The notes beneath the pieces are model-generated. The model was not told the DNA's origin and did not search any database. It worked only from the letters and a program-made list of their open reading frames with translations. Source: Candidatus Latescibacter sp. (lineage in GTDB: Bacteria; Latescibacterota; Latescibacteria; Latescibacterales; Latescibacteraceae). Taken from it: a stretch of DNA of 45,312 bases. A program made the translations under genes and the position numbers. The DNA is taken from assembly GCA_030692375.1 (NCBI GenBank), contig JAUYCD010000265.1, positions 1 to 45,312 of the forward strand, written 5' to 3'. Of this stretch, positions 6,817 to 37,425 are shown piece after piece; position 1 is the first letter of the stretch, and each line of letters opens with the position of its first letter.

Positions 6817-6869
6817 CCTCACCCGGCCTTCAGCCACCCTCTCCTAATTAGGAGAGGGTCGTGGTGAGG
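6817..6869. repeat. Palindromic intergenic repeat / bidirectional terminator
   Basis: A perfect 24-bp palindrome (ACCCTCTCCT facing AGGAGAGGGT, 6836-6859) nested inside CCTCACC...GGTGAGG arms. It separates the convergent pectate lyase and Rieske-like genes and resembles the CCTCACCC/GGTGAGG-type repeats common in environmental genomes. It may terminate transcription from both sides. Confidence 0.7.
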
Positions 6870-6875
6870 TAAAAC

Positions 6876-7346
6876 TTAGAACGTAATATTCAATACTTTT
6901 GTCGTGTTGTCGTAACTACTGGCGAATTTCCTAAAGGACGCCGGGGCCGGTCCTTTAATGACATGCCCGTCAGAGGTGGAATATTCCGAGCCGCAGCATG
7001 GGCATACTAAATTCGCGCCGGATTGTGTGGGAAGTTTGACAGAACACCCCTCAAAAGTACAAGCTGTATTCAAAATAAGAAAATCAAGAGCGGCTGTCCG
7101 GATAATGAACACCGGTACGCCGCCATTGCTGTCGCCGAGCTTCTTTTTCACTATCCCGCCGACAGCGGAAAGAGCCGGCTCGGACGATGTATCGAATTCG
7201 ACGATTGTACCGGCGCTCTTCAAGGTGGTTGATTCGCACCCCCCCAATAACGCCTGAAACATGGCGCCGCAGGCGGTCAATCCCAGGAGAGCGGCCCCGT
7301 CGGCCAGAATTTTGCGCCTCTTTCTGCTTTTCGGTTCATCTTCCAT
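6876..7346 (-). CDS. Rieske-fold lipoprotein with substituted iron-sulfur ligands
   Basis: A 156-aa exported protein with a C-terminal Rieske-type domain. An ATG at 7346 preceded by AAAGGG is preferred over an upstream TTG at 7376. The N-terminus has a twin-arginine-like SRKRRKIL followed by a hydrophobic stretch ending in LLGGC, so Cys37 may be lipidated. The Rieske boxes are altered: box 1 reads CTFEGC (residues 96-101) where CTHxGC is expected, and box 2 reads CPCCGS (115-120) where CPCHGS is expected. Both histidine ligands are therefore gone, one replaced by Phe and one by Cys, while five cysteines remain. A canonical high-potential 2Fe-2S centre could not form; an all-cysteine cluster, another metal or a purely structural fold are possible. 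The gene lies 26 bp downstream of the cytochrome/barrel protein, so the two probably work together in the periplasm. Confidence 0.8.
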   Translation of the reverse strand: MEDEPKSRKRRKILADGAALLGLTACGAMFQALLGGCESTTLKSAGTIVEFDTSSEPALSAVGGIVKKKLGDSNGGVPVFIIRTAALDFLILNTACTFEGCSVKLPTQSGANLVCPCCGSEYSTSDGHVIKGPAPASFRKFASSYDNTTKVLNITF

Positions 7347-7372
7347 GTCATTATTCCCTTTATAGTGATTAT

Positions 7373-8608
7373 TCAATAAAACAGGTGCAACTGCACAGCA
7401 TACCGGCTGGATTTATATTGCTCCGTATCCACCAGGCGGTATTCCGGCCGCAGCTCTACATACGGGATGGGAAATATCTGCGCCCCGAACACTACTCTGT
7501 TGGTATATACCTCAGCCGCACTGATATCCGGGCTGAACCTGGAAATTCCCCGCTCTCCCCTGACGTAAAGGAGAAGAGGTTTGGTCACTCTACAGGAGAC
7601 ATCCACCACACCGTTATGGGTTCTCCGCATACCCTTTTTGTCCGATCGGGCGTACTCGCTGATAAGAGAGACCCGTTTGGCCAGTCCGGCGCTGGCAAAG
7701 ATACTGATCAGGTTGAAATCACCGTTCACCAGAACCGAGCTCCCGGCCAAAAGGTTAACATTCCTGTCCATTGCCCGATGGCGGAATTCCAGTCTTCCCA
7801 GAAAAGAAGGGTTATTTCGGTCCGTGATAAGAGAAATTTCTTTCCCGGTTCTGTCCAGTATACGGTTTTCGGCGAGACTGCGAGCTCCAAAGACGCCGGT
7901 AGTCACTGTCAGCCAGTCCATGCCGTTATAGTTGAACTCGGCGCCATATTCGGCGTAGCTGGGCGGAATGAGGGATGACCCGTTGGCGCCTGCTGTCTGA
8001 CGGGTGATGATGGTATGGTCGTCATACCGTATGCCGATGGATGGCTGGAAATAGCCTGCTCGAAGCTGGGTGTAGGAGTTTTCCGGCTGTAATATGAGTG
8101 AGCCGGTCCATTTCTGCTGGCCTAAAAATTTTTTCGGGCCGAAATTGTAGGACCCCTCTGCTTTCAGACAGGGAGACACTTTAAACGTGGAATACATTGA
8201 GAACTGCATGGGGAAGTATCGCCTTTTCGCGTCAGACGACTTCGGGGTTCGGGTTGTCTGATACCGCATGTCCGTTCCAAAAGAAAATCTATCACCCAAA
8301 AACTGGTTTGTCTCCCTGTCATGACGATAGATGCTCCCCAAACCGACTTTCCCCGGCTTGAGCAGCCCCGCTTCGTGCATCTCATAAAATCCGCGTGTGG
8401 TTCTCAGCCCGGATCCGAGAGCATTCACATGGCATGCAATGCATTTTTCACCGTTTATCATGGCAAATTGTGGAAGGGAAACTGCCGGTTCAACAGAAAC
8501 TACCGCTGCCAGCACCAAGAGCAGCATGAGTATTCCTGCCGACTGGTATGCCATGTACATCGGATTTTGATCACCCCGGAAATTGTCATTTTCACGTGAG
8601 CTTTTCAT
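7373..8608 (-). CDS. Outer-membrane mono-haem cytochrome c / beta-barrel fusion
   Basis: A 411-aa exported protein. Residues 18-45 form a signal peptide (there is an alternative start at Met17; the GAGGAA site favours the first ATG). Just after it lies a single haem-binding motif, CIACH (56-60), inside PQFAMINGEKCIACHVNALG. The rest, about 320 residues, has the alternating polar/hydrophobic pattern, frequent Tyr/Arg and terminal aromatic (LHLFY) of an outer-membrane beta-barrel. The architecture, one N-terminal haem followed by a porin-like barrel, recalls Cyc2 iron oxidases and related cytochrome-porin fusions; similarity to Cyc2 itself is only at the haem motif and layout. A role in moving electrons across the outer membrane is an inference. 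It is co-transcribed with the Rieske-like lipoprotein. Confidence 0.7.
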   Translation of the reverse strand: MKSSRENDNFRGDQNPMYMAYQSAGILMLLLVLAAVVSVEPAVSLPQFAMINGEKCIACHVNALGSGLRTTRGFYEMHEAGLLKPGKVGLGSIYRHDRETNQFLGDRFSFGTDMRYQTTRTPKSSDAKRRYFPMQFSMYSTFKVSPCLKAEGSYNFGPKKFLGQQKWTGSLILQPENSYTQLRAGYFQPSIGIRYDDHTIITRQTAGANGSSLIPPSYAEYGAEFNYNGMDWLTVTTGVFGARSLAENRILDRTGKEISLITDRNNPSFLGRLEFRHRAMDRNVNLLAGSSVLVNGDFNLISIFASAGLAKRVSLISEYARSDKKGMRRTHNGVVDVSCRVTKPLLLYVRGERGISRFSPDISAAEVYTNRVVFGAQIFPIPYVELRPEYRLVDTEQYKSSRYAVQLHLFY

Positions 8609-8678
8609 GGCTGGTTCCTCGCAGAATGGGTAAATAAGGTTTGTTTTTTAAAAGTTTATGAAAATTAATTTTTCGCTT

Positions 8679-8738
8679 AGATCCTGAAACAAGTTCAGGA
8701 TGACACGTGTCATGCCGAACTTGTTTCGGCATCTATTC
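8679..8738. repeat. Dispersed double-hairpin repeat, family 1, core copy B
   Basis: The core of the family-1 element: TCCTGAAAC/GTTCAGGA hairpin, the TGACACGTGTCA palindrome, then a GCCGAAC/GTTTCGGC hairpin. It is in opposite orientation to copy A. It lacks the terminal CATGACGACA arms seen in the full-length copies at 26821 and 37234. It ends 10 bp from the stop codon of the amidohydrolase gene. Confidence 0.85.
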
Positions 8739-37233: not shown

Positions 37234-37425
37234 ATATATGACGACAAAAATAATTGCGCATGTTTTGAGTGTTTAGATCCTGAAACGAGTTCAGGATGAC
37301 ACGTGTCATGCCGAACTTGTTGCCGCTTCGCGGGAACGATGAAACCGTTGCCGTTTCTCGGGAACGGTGAAACCGTTTCGGCATCTATCTTGTAAAGGGA
37401 AACGTAAAATATGTAGTCATGTATA
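37234..37425. repeat. Full-length MITE-like repeat family 1, copy F
   Basis: It carries left arm ATATATGACGACA (37235 onward), the TAGATCCTGAAACGAG hairpin, the TGACACGTGTCA palindrome, a second hairpin expanded by two 28-bp units, and right arm TGTAGTCATGTATA (37412-37425). The left half matches copy C base for base over long stretches. The rest of the 429-bp gap (37034-37462) has the 24-bp repeat at 37201 and no gene. Confidence 0.82.

Follow-up and report, generated by a model that had tools for sequence, protein, structure and literature searches.

The gene at positions 6876–7346 (minus strand) of the window, by which we mean the whole 45,312-nt stretch of Candidatus Latescibacter sp. DNA analysed here (contig JAUYCD010000265.1), encodes a predicted Rieske-fold lipoprotein of 156 amino acids from which both histidine ligands of the [2Fe-2S] cluster are gone. 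We put the odds slightly better than even (about 55%) that this protein is a clusterless, probably disulfide-stapled Rieske-fold lipoprotein and not an ordinary one-electron carrier. The evidence comes from the gene itself, from its relatives in the same phylum, and from a separate family of Bacteroidota lipoproteins in which cysteines of the two Rieske boxes are kept and lost in pairs.

A Rieske-fold lipoprotein with both histidine ligands replaced

Translation of the window DNA gives an uninterrupted product, as the initial annotation had stated. Although the listed open reading frame reaches a TTG at 7376, the ATG at 7346 is the better start for the lipoprotein gene; a sequence resembling a ribosome-binding site, AAAGGGA (7355–7361, minus strand), lies 8 nt 5´ of it. 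Read by eye, residues 1–37 (7236–7346, minus strand) form a signal region with a Tat-like twin arginine (KRRKIL) and a lipobox (LGG-C37), features from which an exported, lipid-anchored lipoprotein is predicted, in agreement with the earlier proposal of export.

Box 1 (residues 96–101; 7044–7061, minus strand), which aligns with the CTH of homologues, reads C96-T-F98-E-G-C101 (CTFEGC; codons TGT ACT TTT), with F98 (TTT, 7053–7055) at the position of the canonical His. Box 2 (residues 115–120; 6987–7004, minus strand), aligned to the C-S-C-H-G of homologues, reads C115-P-C117-C118-G-S120 (CPCCGS; codons TGC CCA TGC TGC), and here the canonical His is C118 (TGC, 6993–6995). These codons reconfirm the loss of both histidines that was first noted from the DNA. 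The clustering of five cysteines was also correctly described: all five lie in the two boxes, and C26 and C37 belong to the signal and lipobox. Each replacement, Phe (TTY) or Cys (TGY) for His (CAY), takes two base changes, which excludes a single-base error at both, and sequencing error is probably not the source of the His-less boxes.

The domain is recognizably Rieske-like, as initially annotated. Pfam Rieske PF00355 matches residues 75–141 with 27.7 bits against a cut-off of 20.3, the sole match to this model in the protein's own 3.9-Mb genome. The AlphaFold2 model is a confident Rieske fold, with block pLDDT values of 92–98 across residues 51–156, and the top PDB matches found for it by Foldseek are all Rieske proteins. 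In Rieske proteins, Fe1 is held by the first Cys of box 1 and the first Cys of box 2, Fe2 is held by the two His, and a disulfide joins the second box-1 Cys to the middle box-2 Cys. The window protein retains the two Fe1 ligands and the two disulfide cysteines. Since Phe cannot coordinate, Fe2 would be left with at most one protein ligand, and with both His gone (F98, C118) no Rieske cluster can form; judged from its boxes, a two-Cys two-His [2Fe-2S] cluster is excluded.

Relatives in the same phylum keep both histidines

Matches at E ≤ 1e-7 were found in 23 of 64 same-phylum genomes (the window's own included), and all orthologues found in the phylum retain both His. Those from another family of the phylum, 38–43% identical, carry CTH and C-x-C-H boxes. 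Taxonomically, the closest genome that has the gene is G003, of the same family; its copy (L014:1498–1980) has both His, with CTHAGC as box 1 and an expanded box 2, CPGPCGHGS. There is thus no CTF/CPCC clade around the window gene, and the conservation that the initial annotation had hoped to see as support for a new ligand type did not materialize: within the phylum, the CTF/CPCC state is known from the window genome only. The same annotation had held that canonical boxes in all close homologues would mark the change as a mutation or error of a single genome. That pattern is largely what the phylum presents, but the replacement of the box-2 His by Cys is fixed in an independent Bacteroidota family, described below.

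The G003 orthologue is itself another unusual Rieske box at the equivalent genomic position, and other, paralogous Rieske-like lipoproteins of the phylum have a damaged box 2 (L027, ISPGHGA; L021, LGPCHGS). An apparent relative in G002 was rejected, as it matched only through the signal and lipobox on an RraA-like protein. Searches with the window protein returned no match among the viral contigs searched, and plasmids gave distant matches only, mostly annotated Rieske proteins.

Paired cysteines in a His-less Bacteroidota family

A scan of genome contigs with the window protein yielded one distant relative, a Bacteroidales lipoprotein (L022) with the box CPCCGS. Relatives of L022 were found in 197 of 295 sampled Bacteroidales genomes, and 129 members were aligned, comprising a first set of 69 and a further 60 fetched afterwards as a held-out set. 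Cys occupies the box-2 His position in 123 of the 129 and His in none; the box-1 His position is mostly Tyr, with His in 24. Wherever the first Cys of box 1 (C1) occurs, the box-2 His position is Cys as well (123 members); the other 6 members have neither, and none has just one of the two. The ratio of both to neither to single was 65:4:0 in the first set and 58:2:0 in the held-out set, covariation with a Fisher p of 2e-10 when relatedness is ignored, and the two cysteines were lost jointly at least three independent times, on well-supported branches. The classical disulfide pair, C2–C4, covaries too (75 both, 46 neither, 8 mixed; p = 5e-27), and unlike pairs of cysteines show no covariation (p = 0.2–0.46). 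Tree-aware sign tests, which are underpowered here, gave p = 0.25 for C1 and the box-2 Cys and p = 0.06 for C2–C4. C3, which corresponds to C115 and binds the cluster in true Rieske proteins, varies independently of the rest: 55 members have Cys there, 69 have Asp and 5 have some other residue. This pairwise loss of cysteines while C3 drifts indicates that the Bacteroidales proteins probably carry a second disulfide in place of the cluster, not a new set of ligands. The window protein has the family trait, with C118 at the box-2 His position together with C96.

A wider Bacteroidota sample contained three further patterns. In one sub-family (L212, L214, L216, L218, L219, L223, L224, L226, L227, L229–L232), Asn and Asp mostly take the place of the His (CPNQ...CSCDK), and both Fe1-ligand cysteines (C1, C3) and both disulfide cysteines are kept. 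Another pattern has Ser at both C1 and the box-2 position (or Ser/Asn), with Asp at C3, and the last comprises two His-bearing sequences with twin-arginine-like signals and without the Rieske disulfide cysteines. In 26 of the 27 His-less sequences of this sample, C1 is Cys exactly when either C3 or the box-2 His position is Cys. Such a rule would be expected of disulfides and does not suit a metal site with four ligands; one with two Cys would be compatible with it. Genes of the Bacteroidales family often lie beside S-adenosylhomocysteinase, which gives their position and not their function. The open literature searched contained nothing relevant on Rieske proteins lacking His, lacking a cluster or carrying CPCCGS, and no paper there describes the Bacteroidales family.

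Probably separate origins and different export signals

In phylogenetic analysis, the window protein falls with its phylum's canonical Tat-exported lipoproteins (support 100/98), and a branch with 100/100 support separates them from the Bacteroidales set. When the window protein was joined to the Bacteroidales, the best tree was 11.4 log units worse, with an AU p of 0.077, so a common origin is disfavoured, though not formally rejected. Given this separate placement, the change from His to Cys in box 2 probably arose at least twice, and the window protein appears to have reached its His-less state independently of the Bacteroidota family.

The signals differ along the same division. A twin arginine followed by any residue and a hydrophobic one (RRx[hydrophobic]) precedes the lipobox in 19 of 20 own-phylum homologues with a scorable lipobox (the window protein excluded) and in 1 of 88 scorable Bacteroidales members, counts made with a script that took the wrong segment for the window protein, which was read by eye, and probably also for some Bacteroidales members. 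The window protein, with KRRKIL, does not have the twin-arginine-free Sec-type signal of the Bacteroidales family. Absence of the twin arginine from the Bacteroidales forms is what one would expect of proteins exported without a cofactor already in place. Genes for TatC, for a haem-copper oxidase subunit and for a cytochrome c assembly protein are present in the window's own genome.

A neighbouring gene for a predicted haem c barrel protein

The gene upstream (7373–8608, minus strand) ends 26 nt before the lipoprotein start. Its 411-aa product has a signal peptide, a single CxxCH haem c site and a C-terminal part that resembles a beta-barrel. In the haem c motif, CIACH (residues 56–60; 8429–8443, minus strand), C56, C59 and H60 do not vary across an alignment of 14 relatives, and porins were the best matches in a fold search made with a low-confidence model (pLDDT 59.9). 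In G003, as in the window, the lipoprotein gene is flanked on one side by the orthologous CxxCH barrel gene and has a pectate-lyase-like gene nearby on the other. Genomes of genus g5 have the lipoprotein and barrel genes far apart or on different contigs, and in G001 the partner gene is present only as a fragment at the edge of a contig.

Elsewhere, G029 (L013 / L041) has a canonical Rieske lipoprotein gene, a YceI-family gene and a CxxCH barrel gene in a row, which suggests a small envelope redox module, and in G009 the CxxCH barrel gene occurs three times in close succession, as copies or fragments (C1:1764944–1771017; L031, L046, L048). The stretch that separates the lipoprotein gene from the convergent pectate-lyase-like gene contains a dispersed palindrome, CACCCTCTCCTAATTAGGAGAGGGT (6835–6859), which the genome has in 36 exact copies. 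Another family of palindromic repeats, built of a core GACACGTGTC between TTCGGCAT/CAGGAT arms, is represented in the window by three copies (1956–2019, 8678–8735 and 37284–37321).

Discussion

We favour a model in which an exported, lipid-anchored Rieske fold has lost its [2Fe-2S] cluster and its tip is held by the usual Rieske disulfide, here C101–C117. A second tip disulfide would join C96, the former Fe1 ligand, to C118 at the former His position, with C115 as an alternative partner; all four cysteines required for both proposed pairs are present. As the window protein lies outside the Bacteroidota clade, these disulfides are proposed by analogy with that family, and we likewise infer the absence of a cluster or metal, the location and the role. 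Canonical relatives are probably one-electron carriers of the cell envelope, and some genomes have them beside a haem c–porin fusion. In the window lineage, the domain is more likely a docking or structural partner of the cytochrome–porin, or a dithiol/disulfide element.

An all-Cys cluster, a different metal and redox disulfides had all been offered initially as uses for the clustered cysteines. The Bacteroidota covariation argues for the disulfides and disfavours an all-Cys cluster or multi-ligand metal. In the window protein, too, we regard an all-Cys metal site as less likely than disulfides. Such a site would be built from C96, C115, C118 and perhaps C101 or C117, and its metal would be one Fe or Zn, or else a [2Fe-2S] cluster bound by three or four of the cysteines. 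Retention of all five box cysteines, the canonical Fe1 ligands C96 and C115 among them, makes a Cys-only site chemically possible. The Tat-like signal, as is usual in proteins that take up their cofactor and fold before they are exported, speaks against the clusterless reading, and the adjacent haem c barrel gene and the TatC and c-type cytochrome assembly functions of the genome would also suit a metalloprotein. We nevertheless consider a metal site unlikely: more than half of the Bacteroidales family has replaced C3, the equivalent of C115, mostly by Asp and without loss of the other two; the Bacteroidales losses are pairwise, as in disulfides; F98 is unable to act as a ligand; and an oxidizing periplasm favours disulfides. 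More doubtful still is electron exchange between the haem c porin next to it and a three- or four-Cys centre, be it [2Fe-2S] or another metal, which would be a natural case of a Rieske domain turned to all-Cys ligation.

A single sequence with CTF/CPCC is compatible with recent decay as well as with new function. Under relaxed constraint, the electron-transfer role would have been lost recently in this lineage and the boxes would be drifting towards no new function, which would account for the restriction of CTF/CPCC to the window genome within the phylum and would find parallels in the altered box-2 spacing of G003 and the damaged box 2 of the paralogues L027 and L021. Simple drift sits poorly with an intact frame, ribosome-binding site, signal and lipobox, with the retention of all five cysteines and the G-P-A motif, and with two replacements that each took two base changes, one of them producing the very Cys that is fixed in another family; we hold it to be an improbable explanation, on a par with a metal site. 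Far less credible than either is an error of sequencing, assembly or annotation in this metagenome-assembled genome. The boxes are known from a single genome in 273 contigs, but such an error would have had to alter four bases across two sites and spare all the rest, and the neighbouring orthologous partner gene is normal.

If the disulfide-stapled reading is true, a redox-cofactor fold has swapped its metal centre for a disulfide more than once, and the survival of a cofactor fold after loss of the cofactor becomes testable. The Bacteroidales His-less family, in which the twin arginine is missing as well, is widespread. Because some His-less members are still picked up by the Pfam Rieske model, automated annotation may call them [2Fe-2S] carriers though no Rieske cluster is possible.

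Comparison with known systems

The partner protein invites comparison with Cyc2, a fused cytochrome–porin in which AXPXFAR[Q/K][T/Y] lies upstream of CXXCH and PXL downstream (PMC8406198). Both have a signal peptide, PxFA near a single CxxCH and about 400 aa, and the C-terminal part of the partner may likewise be a porin-like barrel. The corresponding region of the partner reads LPQFAMINGEKCIACHVNALGSGL, with PxFA and CxxCH but without R[Q/K][T/Y] and PxL, and its identification as Cyc2 was rejected because these parts of the motif are missing; the likeness is one of layout.

With Rieske [2Fe-2S] proteins of PF00355, such as the kuste4569 soluble domain (9rk4), PetC3 (5cxm) and the bovine protein (1rie), the window protein has in common the fold, both box loops, the usual disulfide pair, both Cys ligands and the G-P-A segment; unlike them, it lacks both His ligands. 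The Tat-exported Rieske lipoproteins of its own phylum (L003–L020) are orthologous, the nearest at 36–43% identity, and share its signal and lipobox layout, but they keep CTH (or CPH) and C-x-C-H, save for the longer box 2 of G003. The His-less Bacteroidota lipoproteins resemble the window protein in their Rieske-like domain, in a CPCCGS box with Cys at the box-2 His position and in a box-1 His position that is often aromatic, like F98, whereas they form a separate clade, have a Sec-type signal without twin arginine and lie among different gene neighbours.
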